A DNA stretch of 64,000 nucleotides from Marinococcus luteus (GTDB taxonomy: Bacteria; Bacillota; Bacilli; Bacillales; Marinococcaceae). Every line of letters begins with the position of its first letter. Position 1 is the stretch's first letter. The stretch is taken from NCBI RefSeq assembly GCF_900106595.1, contig NZ_FNNC01000002.1, positions 1 through 64,000 on the forward strand. Reading direction: 5' to 3'. The notes beneath the pieces are model-generated. The model was not told the origin of the DNA and ran no database searches. It was given only the letters and a program-made list of their open reading frames with translations. Made by a program: the position numbers and the translations under genes. This document shows positions 25,690 through 32,578 of the stretch, one piece after another.

Positions 25690-26610
25690 TCAAACCGGGA
25701 TTATAAACGTTCTTCCACGAAACGGCTCATTCACAGCCAGAGTAACGGACTGGACGCCCCCGACTTCATAAAATGTCTGAATCCACAGGCCGTACTGTTT
25801 TTTCACAGGCCCTGCCTCAGCAGCGAAATAATCCTTCCCCGCTTCTTTTGAAACCCGCAAAGCTTCGGCCGGTACAAAGCCTTTCTCCGGAAACCACCAT
25901 CCATCTGCGAGCAGCGAAGCGGTCTCTTTTCGCTCCGGCGCCCGCATCAGTTTTTCCCTGTCACCTGTTTCTATAACTTCTCCTCCGGCCATCACACTGA
26001 CGCTCTCTCCCATATCGAACGCCTCCTCCCGGTCGTGCGTTACAAACATTGAAGTGATGTTTTCCTGCTCAAGTATTCCTTTTACCCAGCGGCGCATCGT
26101 TTTACGTAAAGAACTGTCCAGACTCGAAAATGGCTCATCAAGCAGCAGTACTTTCGGCGTTACAGCTATCGCCCGCGCAAGGGCCACACGCTGCTGCTGG
26201 CCTCCGGAGCATTGATACGGGTACAGTGCTTCAAGCTCCGCTATCTCCATTTTTTCGAGCAGCTGCCTGCCGGCTTTCGTGCGTTCTTTTTTGGGTATTC
26301 GTTTCATTTTCAGCCCGTACGTAACGTTTTGCAGAATCGTTAAATGCGGAAAAAGCAGCGGCTGCTGAAACATTAAAACGACAGGACGCTTCTCAGCCGG
26401 ATTTTCATTTACACTTGTCCCGTCAATCATCACCGTACCGCTTGAAAACGTATCAATCCCCGCAATACAGCGTAAAAGCGTCGATTTTCCCGTGCCGGAT
26501 TTCCCGACCAGGCTTCTGTTTTCCCCCTCTTTAAGCTCGAGGTTTATGTTCCGGAGCACCTGGTTTTCCTGATATACCTTGCTTCCATTCTGAACTGACA
26601 CATATGACAT
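25690..26610 (-). CDS. ynjD: ABC transporter ATP-binding protein, YnjD-like
   Basis: 306 aa. Walker A GKSGTGKST (about 37-45), Q loop, signature CSGGQQQRVALARA, Walker B VLLLDEPFSSLD and switch His in FVTHDREEA are all intact. About 80 residues follow the ATPase core; they may be a small regulatory or docking part. Energises the adjacent two permeases. Confidence 0.92.
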   Translation of the reverse strand: MSYVSVQNGSKVYQENQVLRNINLELKEGENRSLVGKSGTGKSTLLRCIAGIDTFSSGTVMIDGTSVNENPAEKRPVVLMFQQPLLFPHLTILQNVTYGLKMKRIPKKERTKAGRQLLEKMEIAELEALYPYQCSGGQQQRVALARAIAVTPKVLLLDEPFSSLDSSLRKTMRRWVKGILEQENITSMFVTHDREEAFDMGESVSVMAGGEVIETGDREKLMRAPERKETASLLADGWWFPEKGFVPAEALRVSKEAGKDYFAAEAGPVKKQYGLWIQTFYEVGGVQSVTLAVNEPFRGRTFIIPV

Positions 26611-26622
26611 ATTTCCCTACTC

Positions 26623-27405
26623 CTACCACGATTTTAAAATTTTCGTACTGACTCTGAGCACTACGTCAGCAAAAAGCGCAGCAGCCGCCGGAAGCGCTGC
26701 TGTCATTAATGAAAAGGCGCTGACGGCTGAAGGTGCCGCACTGTTTGTATACGGATAATACAATACCGCCATAGTCGTCACTGTTCCTCCTCCTATAATA
26801 ACAGTCAGGGCGAACTGGCTGACAGAAATAACGACTGCAAAAAAGACAGCTGTACGCACAGAAGCAGTCATCTGGGGAAGCTCAATCAGCAAAAACCTGG
26901 CGGCTGCCCCGCCACCGAGGCTTCGCGATTGTTCATACTGGCTTCTTCCTACCCGCTCGTAGCCGGCACGAATGATACGAATCGTGTACGGAAGTGTCGG
27001 CAGCAGATGAAAAAAGGCGACTCCGTACCATGTATTTGCTGTACCGCTTTGCAGAGCAAAAATGTGCAGCCCGACAGCAAGGGCGGTAATGGGAAGAAGC
27101 ACGGGAACTAAAAGCATCGCATCTATCAGTTCCTTTCCCCTGAATTCCCGGACAACAAGCGCTTTAGCTGCCGGAATGCCAATTACGAGATTCAGAGCCG
27201 CCACACAGAGGGCAATAAGAATCGTCCGCCCCCAGGCCTCTGCAAGCAGTGGATCGCCAAATGGCACTCTCCAGCCATCGAGCGTCCATACCAGCGGCCA
27301 AATTTCCCCAAACGGCCATTCCGCAGCGAAGCTCTGCACCACGAGCGCAAGCAAAGGGACTGCAAAGCAAAGCGCAAAAGCGGCTGCCGCTGCTTTTCTT
27401 TTCAT
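26623..27405 (-). CDS. ABC transporter permease (second half-YnjC-like)
   Basis: 260 aa, six membrane spans, binding-protein-dependent transport permease fold with the EAA-type loop SRSLGGGAAARFLLIELPQM. E. coli YnjC is one large protein made of two such halves; here the halves are separate genes. Begins one nucleotide after the first permease. Confidence 0.88.
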   Translation of the reverse strand: MKRKAAAAAFALCFAVPLLALVVQSFAAEWPFGEIWPLVWTLDGWRVPFGDPLLAEAWGRTILIALCVAALNLVIGIPAAKALVVREFRGKELIDAMLLVPVLLPITALAVGLHIFALQSGTANTWYGVAFFHLLPTLPYTIRIIRAGYERVGRSQYEQSRSLGGGAAARFLLIELPQMTASVRTAVFFAVVISVSQFALTVIIGGGTVTTMAVLYYPYTNSAAPSAVSAFSLMTAALPAAAALFADVVLRVSTKILKSW

Positions 27406-27406
27406 G

Positions 27407-28261
27407 CTACTCCCCCCTCCATATCCGGATACGCAGCCGGCGGGTATACCACATCAAAAGTGCGCTGAGAATGATGAACACCACGCCTGTCCAGGCCGAT
27501 ACTGCGTAGGCATAAGGACGTTCCTCCCAGTTTCCGCCGCTGTACCATTCAAAAATGGTAACACCAATCATTTCCGGGCGGGTTGCCCCCACCAGCCCCG
27601 GCACTTCAAAGGCACCGAATACAAACGCAAACAGGATTACTCCCGTTTCCAAGGTTACTGCTTTTAAATAAGGCCATTCCCCGTCTTTAAATTTACGGAA
27701 GGACCCGCCGCCAAGCGTTGCCACCGCATGCTTCACCGAATTGTTCATCTCAAGGTAGACCGGGGCTGTCATCAGCACCACGAAAGGCACCTCTTTCCAT
27801 ACGTAGGATAAAACAATGCCTATGCCGCTTGTATCATTTGTCAGGATAGGGAACTCTGTTCTATTGTCAATCCAGCCCAGCTGCTGCGTCAGAGACGCCG
27901 CCCATCCGCTTTGTGAAAAAAACCAGATGACAAGATAGGCCCCCACAAAATGAGGAACAGCCATCGGGATCCAGAACAGCGCACCGGCACCGGCGCTCCG
28001 TTTTTTCCCAAACAACAGTTTAGACGCCGCCACCCCGATCCCTAAAGAAAGCACGGTGGAAACGGCCGTCACTCCAAGACTGAAGCTGAGGCTTTCCCAA
28101 AAAGAAGGCAGCGATGCTACGTCATTAAGGACAACTAATGGATTTCCTTCTGCGCCAAGCCGCGTCCATAGTACTGCAACCGCGTAAAATGAAAGCCCTG
28201 CCGTAACAAGAAGCGCCGGCAAAAGCATAGCTATCATGCTTTTACCTTTGAACAATTTCAT
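27407..28261 (-). CDS. ABC transporter permease (first half-YnjC-like)
   Basis: 284 aa, six membrane spans, permease loop VATLGGGSFRKFKDGEWPYL. An upstream frame reaches 28321, but it overlaps the binding-protein gene; the ATG at 28261 gives a normal short N-terminus (MKLFKGKSMIAML). It overlaps the end of the binding-protein gene by 20 nt. Confidence 0.85.
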   Translation of the reverse strand: MKLFKGKSMIAMLLPALLVTAGLSFYAVAVLWTRLGAEGNPLVVLNDVASLPSFWESLSFSLGVTAVSTVLSLGIGVAASKLLFGKKRSAGAGALFWIPMAVPHFVGAYLVIWFFSQSGWAASLTQQLGWIDNRTEFPILTNDTSGIGIVLSYVWKEVPFVVLMTAPVYLEMNNSVKHAVATLGGGSFRKFKDGEWPYLKAVTLETGVILFAFVFGAFEVPGLVGATRPEMIGVTIFEWYSGGNWEERPYAYAVSAWTGVVFIILSALLMWYTRRLRIRIWRGE

Positions 28262-29468
28262 TTTCCCACCGGTCTTCGGTCCACTCTGCATAGCCTGCAT
28301 CCATTTCCGGCTGATAAGCATCGTTCAGCACTTCGGTATCCAGCACGGAATCCCCGCGGTCCTGTTCAATAAATTTTTGGCGCATCTCCTCTGAGAGCGT
28401 ATCAAGATCAAGCACGGTGCTGTCCCCCCACATTGACGGCGCCTGTTTCTGCAGCTGCGCTTCCGGAGATACTAAGTAATTGATCGCAGCCATCGCTCCC
28501 GGTACATTTGTGCTGTTAAAAGGAATGGACAGATAATGGGTGTTTCCTATCGAATTGTCGTCAAATACAAACGTGTCCGTTGTTTCCGGAAATGTGCCGT
28601 CCTGGATGAGGCTTTCTGCTCTCGCTTCATTGTAGCCCATGGTCATAGACACTTCGCCGTCCCGGTACAGCCGGTCAAGCTGGCTGAGCGACGATGGATA
28701 CGTCTCCCCGTCTCTCCATAGATCCGGCTCCATTTCCCGCAGGGTCTCCCACATACTGCCGCTTTGTTCATCGATCCATTCTTCATCGTATCCCTGTTCA
28801 ATGACTTGTTCGGCTTCGACATTGTTATAAATAAAATGGCGCAAAAACGCGTTGCCGGTAAAATCGGTCGCTTCCGGATACGTAAACTCTCCCGGGTTGT
28901 CCTCCACCCAGGCGGCAAGCTCTTCAATACTGTTTGGAGGCGTATCAACCTTTTCGGTGTCATACATGAAGGTAAACTGTACCGACCCCCACGGCACTTC
29001 CATCCCTTCAACCGGTGTACCGAAATCATACGCGTTTGTATCGGCCTCCATATCAATATGATTTTCCACGTTCGGGAGAGCGTCTGCGAAGGAACCGTAT
29101 AAAAGCTCGTTCTCCTTTGCGTTACGGAAATTCTCTCCGTTCAGCCAGACGATATCCATCGTCCCTTCTTCCGTGCCCGCTTCTTTTTCAGAATAAAGAT
29201 TTTGCAGTGCATCTTCGGTTTCAATCGGATTCCGGTTCAGCGTAATATCGTACTGCTCCTCCAAACGCGGGGCCACCCATTCGTCTATGTATTCATTGGT
29301 TCCCTGGTCCCCGCCCCACATATGTAATTCCACGGTCGTTCCTGCGGCTTCTTCCTCAATATCCTCCCACTCCTCTTCCTCCCAGGACGTCCCGCTTTCC
29401 TCTGAACCTCCGGAGCACCCTGCAGCGATAAGCATCGTCCCTGCGGCTGCGATTATTTTCCAATTCAT
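28242..29468 (-). CDS. ynjB: ABC transporter substrate-binding lipoprotein, YnjB-like
   Basis: 408 aa. Lipobox AAGC (Cys18), a short acidic linker (EEEEWEDIEEEA), then a type II periplasmic binding fold (VELHMWGGDQGTNEYIDEW; ISLPFNS-like segment near 320). It belongs with the E. coli YnjB group (COG4134), often annotated for thiamine or unknown substrates. Start ATG with AAAGGAG upstream. First gene of the eight-gene operon. Confidence 0.88.
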   Translation of the reverse strand: MNWKIIAAAGTMLIAAGCSGGSEESGTSWEEEEWEDIEEEAAGTTVELHMWGGDQGTNEYIDEWVAPRLEEQYDITLNRNPIETEDALQNLYSEKEAGTEEGTMDIVWLNGENFRNAKENELLYGSFADALPNVENHIDMEADTNAYDFGTPVEGMEVPWGSVQFTFMYDTEKVDTPPNSIEELAAWVEDNPGEFTYPEATDFTGNAFLRHFIYNNVEAEQVIEQGYDEEWIDEQSGSMWETLREMEPDLWRDGETYPSSLSQLDRLYRDGEVSMTMGYNEARAESLIQDGTFPETTDTFVFDDNSIGNTHYLSIPFNSTNVPGAMAAINYLVSPEAQLQKQAPSMWGDSTVLDLDTLSEEMRQKFIEQDRGDSVLDTEVLNDAYQPEMDAGYAEWTEDRWENEIVQR

Positions 29469-29563: not shown

Positions 29564-29597
29564 CAAAAAGACTGCCCTCTGCAGGACAGTCTTTTTA
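29564..29597 (-). terminator. Terminator after the surface repeat protein gene
   Basis: AAAAAGACTGTCC/GGACAGTCTTTTT-like stem (one mismatch) with a TCTGC loop. It separates the surface protein gene from the ynjB operon. Confidence 0.85.
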
Positions 29598-29607
29598 AAA
29601 ATAAATG

Positions 29608-30999
29608 CTACGCTTCTTCGCGGCGGCGCTTCGTTACAGCGATACCTGCCAGAATGAGCGCCATGCTGCCGGCAGCAATCCCCCAGGGGCTCACGTTCTG
29701 TTCAGAGCCGCCAAGGCCGGTCTGTGGCATTTCTTCCGGCATTGCTTCATCAGAAGAGCTCTCTTCAAAATTCTCCGGATACTGAGCCACAATGGCGCCG
29801 GAAAGACCTTCACTCACGCCAAACATATGGCCGTAAGCTTCGCGTGTATCTTCATAGGCACTGTCGTACTCTTCCATTGTATAGCTGTCAAACGCCCCGA
29901 TTAACTGATCCACGTGCATCCCGAGGCCTTCAGAAAGTCCTTCTGCTTCCAATTCACCTTCGGTAGCCCCTGCCAGGAATTCAGAGAACTCTGTCTGATA
30001 GTTTCCGAGGTTGTCGAGCGCTTCCTGTTTTGCTTCCTCGTCCTCCGCTCCCGTCGCTTCCACGTAATCAACAAAGTAGCCGATGTGTTCGCTCCACATT
30101 TCTTCAAACTGTTCTCCGGCTTCCTCTCCGTAGACGGAAGCAATCGTATCAGAGAGCTCCTGCGTATTCTGGTTCAGGATTCCTGCTGCTGCTCCGAAAT
30201 CCTCCGCTCCGGCTCCGCCCTTCTGCATCGTCGTTACAGCGAGTGCTGCGTGTTCTGAAAGCAGGAAGTTCAGATCCGAACGAAGATCAACCGCCGGAGT
30301 ATCTGGTGTGGTGTTGTCATACTCTTCCGGAAACTGGGCGGCAATAGCTCCTGATAAGCCTTCGCTGACTCCATACATGTGCTCAATGGCATCGCTTGAC
30401 ATGCTGTAGGCTTCCTCGTAATCGCCTGCAACGTAGCTGTCAAAAGCACCGATCAGCTGATCCACGTGCATCCCGAGACCTTCCGCAGCTGCGTCGGCTT
30501 CAAGTCCGCCTTCAGTAGCGCTGTCAAGAAACTCCGAAAACTCTGTCTGATAATTTCCGAGGTTGTCGAGCGCCTCCTGCTTTGCTTCCTCGTCCTCCGC
30601 TCCCGTCGCTTCCACATAATCAACAAAGTAGCCGATGTGTTCGCTCCACATTTCTTCAAACTGTGTACCCGCTTCTTCCCCGTAAACGGATGTGATAGTA
30701 CTTGAAAGATCCTTCGTATTTGCTTCTAATGCAGCGGCGGATTCTTCAAAATCATCTGCTCCGTCCGCCCCCTTCTGCATCGTCGTTACTGCCAGATATG
30801 CGTGTTCTGAAAGGTAATGGTCCAGCTGGGCCCTGAGGTCTCCGGCCGGCGTAGCTGCAGAAGCCATCATTTCCTCTGACATTTCCATATCGTCGTGGCC
30901 GTCGTGGCTGTCGGCTGAAGCGACTCCCGGTGCTGCCGGAATAATAACGGCGGCAGATAACGGCAGGGCTATGGCGGTGCGTTTCCAGTTGATGTACAT
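29608..30999 (-). CDS. Secreted two-repeat helical surface protein with LPXTG-like anchor
   Basis: 463 aa. Signal peptide (about 1-29), His/Met/Asp-rich segment (32-45, HDGHDDMEM), two tandem repeats of about 170 residues (53-225 and 238-407), then MPQTG (424-428), a membrane span (437-456) and KRRREEA, the layout of a sortase substrate. Each repeat has four predicted helices with conserved His: SEHAxLAVTTMQKG, EEMWSEHIGYFVDYVEATG, MHVDQLIGAFDSY and HMxGVSEGLSGAI. Function unknown; some relatives are labelled copper amine oxidase without clear basis. It has its own promoter sharing a motif with the neighbouring ECF sigma gene. Confidence 0.85.
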   Translation of the reverse strand: MYINWKRTAIALPLSAAVIIPAAPGVASADSHDGHDDMEMSEEMMASAATPAGDLRAQLDHYLSEHAYLAVTTMQKGADGADDFEESAAALEANTKDLSSTITSVYGEEAGTQFEEMWSEHIGYFVDYVEATGAEDEEAKQEALDNLGNYQTEFSEFLDSATEGGLEADAAAEGLGMHVDQLIGAFDSYVAGDYEEAYSMSSDAIEHMYGVSEGLSGAIAAQFPEEYDNTTPDTPAVDLRSDLNFLLSEHAALAVTTMQKGGAGAEDFGAAAGILNQNTQELSDTIASVYGEEAGEQFEEMWSEHIGYFVDYVEATGAEDEEAKQEALDNLGNYQTEFSEFLAGATEGELEAEGLSEGLGMHVDQLIGAFDSYTMEEYDSAYEDTREAYGHMFGVSEGLSGAIVAQYPENFEESSSDEAMPEEMPQTGLGGSEQNVSPWGIAAGSMALILAGIAVTKRRREEA

Positions 31000-31026
31000 G
31001 AATGAATCCCCCTTATATTTAGTTTC

Positions 31027-31059
31027 AGTCAGCTAACGAAACAAATACACGGCTGGATC
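31027..31059 (-). promoter_or_regulatory. Putative ECF-sigma promoter of the surface repeat protein
   Basis: Minus-strand GATCCA (31054-31059), 15-nt spacer, CGTTAGCTGACT (31027-31038). The same two elements precede the ECF sigma gene at 32545-32578. Transcription would start about 28 nt before the gene. Confidence 0.7.
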
Positions 31060-31135
31060 ATATTTTGTGAATATTTTGTGACTTTTTATTTAATCCATTC
31101 TTCCAAAACTACTGGTGTGAAGGTAATTTATTATG

Positions 31136-31167
31136 CAAAAAAGACCGGAAAAAATTTCCGGTCTTTT
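31136..31167 (-). terminator. Terminator after the RskA-like anti-sigma gene
   Basis: AAAAGACCGGAAA/TTTCCGGTCTTTT perfect stem with T tail, 8 nt beyond the stop. Confidence 0.88.
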
Positions 31168-31174
31168 CGTGTCT

Positions 31175-31948
31175 TTAGGAAAACGGAGCTTCGAGCACCA
31201 CTTCACCCTCAGGTGCTTCGTTGTCCGGCTCCGGCTCTCTCGTAATCGCCACGGCGTTCCAATCTTCATTCACTGCATCCGACGGGAAGACAAGCGAACC
31301 ACTTCCGTCTTCATTGGTTGTAAATGATCCTGCCGGCACCATCTGGTTGCCGTCACCAACCATCCACACCTGATAGACTTCACTATTATCAAGATTTTCG
31401 AGTCCCTCTACGTGCACAGCCATTTCTCCCTGCTGCTCAGCATTAAGAAGCGTGACTCTTCCGCTTCCCTGGGAGTTTTCTGTAGGGGCAAACTCCTGTG
31501 AAGCAATTACTTCGCCCGTTTCCTGTGAAGAATCTTCAAGCTCTGAAAGAGCCGTTTGCATTTCTCCAAGGTCTCCGGCGAGTTCTTCGCGTTCTTCTGC
31601 TGCCTGCTGCCACTGCGTGCCAAGATAAATATTGGTGCCTATGGAAGCAAGCAGTACTGCGGCCAGTGCGCCTGCCACAGCGCTCCATTTCCTTTTTGGT
31701 TTTGCCGCCGTAATTTTCTCTTCCGGCTCTTTTCCGACGACATGCTCCATGACCCGGCTTTTCATACCGGCCGGTGGATCCTGTGGTTCGATGTGTTGGG
31801 GCAGCTCTCCCATAATCGCCTGCATTTCTTCAAGCTCCTGCCTCGTCTCCTCATCCGTTTCGAGCCAGGCTTCAAACTCCCGCTCTTCTTCTATGGTTAA
31901 TAGACCATTTATATAATCAAACAACCAGTCTTGTTTATTACTCGCCAT
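31175..31948 (-). CDS. RskA-type anti-sigma factor
   Basis: 257 aa. N-terminal sigma-binding helices (about 1-70, DWLFDYINGLLTIEEEREFE) without zinc-binding HCC residues, membrane span (about 88-110), coiled-coil stretch (about 115-145) and an extracellular RskA domain (about 155-257; VYQVWMVGDGNQMVPAGSF). It should hold the ECF factor encoded upstream. ATG at 31948 has GGAGGG 6 nt upstream and overlaps the sigma gene by 11 nt. Confidence 0.92.
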   Translation of the reverse strand: MASNKQDWLFDYINGLLTIEEEREFEAWLETDEETRQELEEMQAIMGELPQHIEPQDPPAGMKSRVMEHVVGKEPEEKITAAKPKRKWSAVAGALAAVLLASIGTNIYLGTQWQQAAEEREELAGDLGEMQTALSELEDSSQETGEVIASQEFAPTENSQGSGRVTLLNAEQQGEMAVHVEGLENLDNSEVYQVWMVGDGNQMVPAGSFTTNEDGSGSLVFPSDAVNEDWNAVAITREPEPDNEAPEGEVVLEAPFS

Positions 31949-32501
31949 AATCAACCCTCCGTTCCCTGGAGAGGTGTTCTTTTAATTTCTTTAGGGCGAG
32001 CCTGATGCGGCCCTTTACAGTACCGAGCGGTATATCGCAGGACTCTGCAATCTTACGCTGGGACAGCCCCTGAAAATAAAACAGGCGGACAATTTTTTGT
32101 TGTTCCTCTGAAAGAAGCGCGATTGCCTGTTCGAGCTCTTCGTTGCTTTCTTTCAGCTCCACCTGCTCTTCCACCCCTGTCATTTCCTCTTTCGAATCCC
32201 TCGGATCCCATTCCACTTCCGGCTTTTTTCTCCGGATGGCATCAATCGAGGCGTTGCGTGTAATCGTAAGCAGCCAGGAAGAAAGTGAGCCTTTATCTTT
32301 CTGGTAGACAGCGCTTCCCTTCCCCTGCCATATTTTCATAAAAACATCTTGCATGATCTCTTCGGCTATTTGCTGATCCTTAGTCATTCGGTAGGCGAAT
32401 GAATAAAGCAGCCGTTCGTAACGATCATACAGAATTTCAAGCGCTTCTCTGTCACGCTCTCGTATGCGCTCATATAAATCGTTATCCGATAACTTCGACA
32501 T
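31938..32501 (-). CDS. ECF sigma factor (SigK/RskA-associated group)
   Basis: 187 aa. Region 2: ILYDRYERLLYSFAYRMTKD, EEIMQDVFMKIWQG and LSSWLLTITRNASIDAIRRK. Region 4: EEQQKIVRLFYFQGLSQRKI and IPLGTVKGRIRLALKKL. Partner of the RskA-type anti-sigma factor. The likely targets are its own operon and the surface repeat protein, based on a shared upstream motif. Confidence 0.93.
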   Translation of the reverse strand: MSKLSDNDLYERIRERDREALEILYDRYERLLYSFAYRMTKDQQIAEEIMQDVFMKIWQGKGSAVYQKDKGSLSSWLLTITRNASIDAIRRKKPEVEWDPRDSKEEMTGVEEQVELKESNEELEQAIALLSEEQQKIVRLFYFQGLSQRKIAESCDIPLGTVKGRIRLALKKLKEHLSRERRVDYGE

Positions 32502-32544
32502 AGGTCTTCTCCTTTTTTCAAAATGCGTGGGAAAAGAGGTATGT

Positions 32545-32578
32545 AGTCAGCTTACGCAGCAGACCCCCGTATTGGATC
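32545..32578 (-). promoter_or_regulatory. Putative autoregulatory ECF-sigma promoter
   Basis: Minus-strand GATCCA (32573-32578), 16-nt spacer, CGTAAGCTGACT (32545-32556), about 44 nt before the sigma gene start. It differs at one position in the 12-bp -10 region from the motif before the surface protein gene. Confidence 0.7.

Follow-up and report, generated by a model that had tools for sequence, protein, structure and literature searches.

Organization of the locus

The window, meaning the whole 64-kb stretch of DNA analyzed here, comes from a Marinococcus genome of 2.9 Mb. On its minus strand lie genes for an ECF sigma factor, an RskA-type anti-sigma factor and a predicted wall-anchored surface protein, accompanied by promoter-like sites and terminator-like hairpins:

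32545..32578, minus strand: putative autoregulatory promoter of the sigma gene, (A)GATCC-N17-CGTAAGCTGACT (pattern match and orthologue sites)
31938..32501, minus strand: ECF sigma factor gene (187 aa; Sigma70_r2 69.1 bits, Sigma70_r4_2 52.4 bits)
31175..31945, minus strand: RskA-type membrane anti-sigma gene, rskA (256 aa; RskA_C 72.1 bits)
31135..31168, minus strand: intrinsic-terminator-like hairpin between sigma-rskA and the surface gene (-18.1 kcal/mol, z -5.9)
31031..31060, minus strand: putative surface-gene promoter, TGATCCAGCCGTGTATTTGTTTCGTTAGCT (-35 TGATCC, 16-base spacer, -10 CGTTAG)
29608..30999, minus strand: predicted wall-anchored surface protein gene (463 aa; open reading frame with a 552-bp repeat)
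29564..29597, minus strand: terminator-like hairpin 3' of the surface gene (-20.9 kcal/mol, z -6.2)

The minus-strand order of transcription is thus sigma, rskA, hairpin, surface gene and second hairpin, and the rskA ATG overlaps the 3' end of the sigma gene. The first hairpin is near-palindromic with T runs at both sides and is also listed on the plus strand. Downstream of the surface gene, with a hairpin in between, lies an ABC-transporter operon (window 25690-29468). This operon is also found beside the surface gene in Alkalihalobacillus algicola and beside rskA in a further genome, G027 (L042 7547-12717; L159 606-2764); a functional link with the regulon described below is possible.

The sigma factor has the ECF (group IV) architecture, with regions 2 and 4, both above their Pfam cut-offs, and no region 3. 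Its closest solved structure is R. sphaeroides RpoE/SigE (2q1z, E 5.9e-23). SigK is its second-best NCBIfam sigma family, at 121 bits against a cut-off of 226. The anti-sigma factor scores 72.1 bits with the RskA_C model (cut-off 29.4) and only 19.9 bits, against 124.5, with the ChrR family model; the solved-structure search returned no relative of it at E 0.1.

The surface protein

The surface protein consists of a signal peptide, two six-helix domains and a putative MPQTG sorting signal, and is 98% identical to its M. halotolerans homologue. Its two repeats, of ~184 aa each at a spacing of 552 bp, are predicted with high confidence by AF2 as six-helix up-down domains (pLDDT 94 for the single domain, 81 for the whole protein). 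The sorting signal combines MPQTG with a helix (residues 438-462) and a KRRREEA tail, and its Gram_pos_anchor score of 17.8 bits falls just below the cut-off of 20.

No Pfam family was found for the six-helix domains of the window protein or of 48 domain copies, and a profile search of solved structures gave no match. Foldseek and VIA-align returned generic helical bundles only, the best (Z 9.5) being designed helical proteins that include a six-helix barrel. Some homologues are named "copper amine oxidase" in public records; this name has no domain support, as no such Pfam domain occurs in the window protein, the 48 domain copies or a plasmid homologue so annotated.

Among the 48 domain copies, R10, H20, G61, F68, A85 and H132 are invariant and H75 is nearly so. 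In the domain model, helices 1, 3 and 5 carry H20, H75 and H132 at about mid-length; an up-down bundle would place these three helices in parallel, which makes a three-histidine site possible. In a Halobacillus locisalis copy (L048 6001-7614), three S-layer homology domains joined to the helical domains replace the sortase signal, an exchange that fits a domain for surface display; no promoter of the type described below was found upstream of this copy.

A shared promoter motif

The initial annotation had reported GATCCA-N15/16-CGTWAGCTGACT upstream of both the sigma gene and the surface gene. The pattern is indeed present on the minus strand at 32545-32578 (N16) and 31027-31059 (N15), and a single base distinguishes the 12-bp -10 blocks, CGTTAGCTGACT and CGTAAGCTGACT, as had been claimed. 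The full pattern has 2 matches in the 64 kb and 0 in 100 dinucleotide shuffles. The loose core GATCC-N14-18-CGTW, found 6 times in the window against 4.2 expected, is not above chance, and the two window sites therefore need comparative evidence. What is conserved is TGATCCA(A)-N14-CGTTAGCT, with 16 bases between TGATCC and CG; the annotated motif is not kept in full, its trailing GACT being different already in M. halotolerans.

Within the host genome, where the regulon was searched by pattern matching only, the best motif match is the surface-gene promoter and the second-best lies upstream of an unlinked sortase gene. Matches to GATCC-N14-18-CGTWAG at C8:114490 and C9:50763 were dropped; the first lies within an ORF for a short-chain dehydrogenase-like protein, the second within one for a transporter.

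Conservation of the promoter

Homologues of the surface protein were taken from the family, the order and a named genome collection. TGATCC-N16-CG(T/A) occurs upstream of 84 of 85 surface-gene homologues (genomes or named loci, Bacillales), 30-75 nt 5' of the start. The spacer is 16 bases in 82 of these 84 loci and 17 in 2. None of the 82 spacer-16 promoters deviates at bases 3-5 of TGATCC or at the CG of the -10. A GCT extension 3' of the -10 is unusually conserved. The sole homologue without the promoter, in G233, may reflect a poor choice of gene copy. Among the 30 best order-level loci, the promoter is found in 30/30 upstream regions, always with a spacer of 16. It beat or equalled all 100 shuffles of its own upstream DNA in the first 30 loci, and beat all of them in nearly all. 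Conservation extends across dozens of Bacillales genera. For example, TGATCCA-N15-CGTTAG precedes linked genes and unlinked paralogues in Marinococcus, Halobacillus, Lentibacillus and Alkalihalobacillus, and variant forms occur in Virgibacillus and others.

The site also tracks the surface family genome-wide. Of the 299 genomes sampled from the order, 158 have the family and 68 have exact TGATCCA-N15-CGTTAGC sites; these sites occur in 67 of the 158 genomes with the family versus 1 of the 141 without it (Fisher p ~3e-21). A backward control pattern gave about 10 matches in total. At the 30 order-level loci inspected, the majority of sites lie 5' of the surface gene or the sigma gene. Similarly, when up to one mismatch is allowed, 12 of the 14 family-level genomes that have a sigma orthologue contain a site, versus 1 of the 15 that lack it (Fisher 2e-5). 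The only 1 of the 68 exact-site genomes without a detected surface homologue is G186 (L336). In a sister Marinococcus (G012), the surface gene linked to sigma-rskA is broken and mostly lost while the promoter-like site is kept (contig C1; L034 about 1500-1760), and an intact copy, ~80% identical, lies elsewhere in the genome.

These comparisons bear on the reading that the two window sites resemble each other by chance or through recent duplication. The near-chance frequency of the core pattern in the window is compatible with it, but the spacers of the two sites differ in sequence and length and the site is conserved across dozens of genera. Chance resemblance is contradicted by the shuffle controls and the genome-wide tracking of the surface family, and the reading as a whole is extremely improbable.

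The shared sequence might instead be the operator of a separate DNA-binding regulator. Strong conservation by itself fits an operator as well as a promoter, and the unusually conserved GCT extension could be taken in the same sense. Such an operator would nevertheless have to consist of two blocks with a fixed 16-base spacer (82/84) at 30-75 nt from the start, in a form identical to known RpoE/ChrR-type promoters, and its third -10 base would have to covary with residue 83 of the sigma factor (see below); it is very unlikely. RpoE/ChrR-family promoters in P. syringae and Shewanella have the form TGATCC-N16-CGTA (PMC5507510, PMC4336711). Judged by its sequence, the window promoter is of this RpoE/ChrR type, a likeness that the initial annotation had missed.

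Sigma orthologues and proposed autoregulation

Exactly one close sigma orthologue is present in 66/66 order-level genomes that carry the surface gene. At the family level, the sigma orthologue is shared by exactly those 14 genomes in which a strong surface homologue was found; G002 adds a single weak sigma match. Most sigma orthologues are preceded by an equivalent site, whose -35 is often weaker (ACATCC, AGATCC or TGATCT). Because the scan reports the best match within 170 bases, any single weak site is uncertain; in G007 and G016 the scan found no sigma-gene promoter. The orthologous gene pairs on which the initial annotation had staked its proposal thus keep the motif, at 84 of the 85 surface homologues and at most sigma orthologues.

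Covariation of a -10 base with sigma residues

Fourteen genomes have A instead of T as the third -10 base (CGA) in both the surface and the sigma promoters. In all 14 of these, sigma residue 83 is Tyr or Phe and residue 40 is Ser or Cys, a pair that occurs in 0 of 71 CGT genomes. The two positions were picked after viewing the alignment; G254, which represents the second origin, was checked afterwards, and its sigma residues were predicted from the promoter before the sigma factor was retrieved. The sigma tree needs two changes, with a single clade rejected (AU p 0.008), and the T-to-A switch appears to have arisen on at least two occasions, although the independent switch events number only two.

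Residue 83 aligns by spacing (W-x3-I-x2-N), seven residues after a conserved tryptophan, with N88 of M. tuberculosis SigH. SigH N88 hydrogen-bonds the flipped base after the G of the -10, and its position has been proposed to help set specificity at this base (PMC6411747). Three CGT genomes of the present set have Y83 together with T40, and therefore the identity of the base does not depend on residue 83 alone. The two promoters disagree in G109 and G261, which have CGA before the sigma gene but CGT before the surface gene, and a sigma factor with T40 and N83. As read from the alignments, the covariation ties the sigma factor to the shared promoter.

Bacillales genomes commonly have several ECF sigma factors, and their specificities can overlap. 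Another ECF sigma factor of the same genomes could accordingly read these promoters, its linkage to the window sigma factor being incidental. This would leave three observations to account for: the one-to-one co-occurrence with the orthologue of the window sigma factor, the autoregulatory sites at window-type sigma genes, and a base switch that tracks residues of the window-type sigma factor on two occasions. A role for another sigma factor is consequently improbable to a high degree. Taken together, the conserved promoters, the co-occurrence of the sigma factor and the covariation strongly support, at the level of sequence, the initially proposed small regulon with a shared promoter, including its promoter architecture, its membership and the specificity of the sigma factor for the promoter.

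A sortase and other candidate members of the regulon

The second-best site of the host genome lies ~54 nt 5' of a 242-aa sortase gene on contig C9. On the strength of this site, the sortase gene belongs to the predicted regulon, a member overlooked in the initial annotation. Class F (NF033748) is the best NCBIfam family for the host sortase, at 141.3 bits, yet this score is below the curated cut-off of 166. A homologous sortase (57-59% identical) lies within the surface-gene cluster in sister Marinococcus species, and a sortase gene is near the surface gene in 24 of 54 loci from many genera, including one Planococcus plasmid whose sortase homologue is annotated as class F. No nearby sortase gene was found in 30 of the 54 loci, several of which have short flanks. 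A second class-F-like sortase of the host (C8:410,648; L052 489-1929) follows another MPQTG-anchored protein and is without the promoter.

Two Planococcus plasmids (L297, L298) carry the surface gene. On one of them, the class F sortase gene is directly 3' of it; on the other, the surface gene is divergent from a plastocyanin/azurin-family gene.

Further genes have the site in some relatives. In one genus (g6), an exact promoter copy precedes CHRD-domain proteins with MPQTG near the C-terminus (L142 1785-2384; L143 2778-3377; L146 2120-2764). A 144-aa protein with an fn3-like domain (L141 3207-3641; L145 2824-3258) has exact promoter copies on both sides, 552 bases apart, and its domain resembles the tail of the longer sortases of the regulon. 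In another genus (g39; L313, L320), an exact site lies 190-270 nt 5' of the gene for a 370-400-aa secreted-looking protein with low-complexity T/V/E-rich repeats.

The anti-sigma factor and the proposed circuit

The zinc motif H-x3-C-x2-C is present in the cytoplasmic part of 61 of 67 anti-sigma orthologues with a readable gene; this motif (ZAS domain) is absent from the anti-sigma factors of all five Marinococcus and of G027. With the motif lost in Marinococcus, a zinc-based switch is unlikely in the window's organism, and the ectodomain is the likelier input of the window's anti-sigma factor. RskA would presumably sense a membrane signal.

The locus very probably encodes an ECF sigma/anti-sigma circuit that controls its own expression and has a very small regulon, made up of sigma-rskA, the six-helix wall protein and the class-F-like sortase. 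By analogy with known systems, the co-transcribed single-pass RskA would bind the sigma factor at rest and keep it inactive, and an envelope signal would, presumably through proteolysis, cause RskA to release it. The freed sigma factor would recognize TGATCC-N16-CG(T/A)WAG promoters at its own operon, the surface gene and the class-F-like sortase gene on C9; in some relatives, the CHRD-domain anchored proteins would join the regulon. The sortase presumably anchors the surface protein, and the outcome would be the display of a dedicated substrate, together with its sortase, on the cell wall.

Relation to known systems

The closest known system is RpoE-ChrR (ECF11) of Rhodobacter sphaeroides, Pseudomonas syringae and Shewanella, which shares the -35, spacing and -10 core of the window regulon. 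The sequence of the sigma recognition helix is near-identical (PLGT-K-RIRLAL), and the H-x3-C-x2-C zinc motif is found in most of the orthologous anti-sigma factors, with the loss in Marinococcus noted above. However, the ECF11 anti-sigma factor is a soluble ChrR-type protein, whereas the partner in the window is a membrane protein with an RskA_C ectodomain. The regulons differ as well: the targets found here are the surface protein and the sortase, and no photo-oxidative repair gene was found to have the site.

The SigK-RskA system of Mycobacterium tuberculosis likewise combines an RskA-type anti-sigma factor with a small regulon, which includes the antigens MPT70 and MPT83 (PMC7509140); the target proteins here are unrelated to these. 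M. tuberculosis RskA is without the zinc motif (PMC7406223), in contrast to most of the anti-sigma orthologues examined here, and SigK has an arginine at the N88 position (PMC6411747). The host sortase resembles class F sortases most, with the sub-threshold score given above, and differs from them in that one ECF sigma factor is predicted to control both it and its presumed substrate.

The kind of system is thus known already. No ECF-RskA-sortase link was found in the literature searched, although a prior group-level description in the ECF classification is possible; the regulon, its breadth and its natural specificity switch appear to be undescribed in that literature.

A broader reading can be offered tentatively, with a somewhat less than even chance of holding in all its parts. 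It would be a Bacillales-wide wall-display regulon whose specificity changed naturally at least two times through paired substitution of sigma residues 40 (to Ser or Cys) and 83 (to Tyr or Phe). The flipped -10 base would have gone from T to A at the target promoter and, in most cases, at the sigma factor's own as well. The displayed six-helix domain would be undescribed, and its three conserved histidines could form a metal or heme site.

The proposed circuit brings together the sigma factor and its promoter with a sortase and an uncharacterized surface family that is present in 158 of 299 genomes of the order. Through this circuit, the function of the surface family becomes testable, and the switch amounts to a natural experiment in -10 recognition by ECF sigma factors, at the base beside the point of unwinding.
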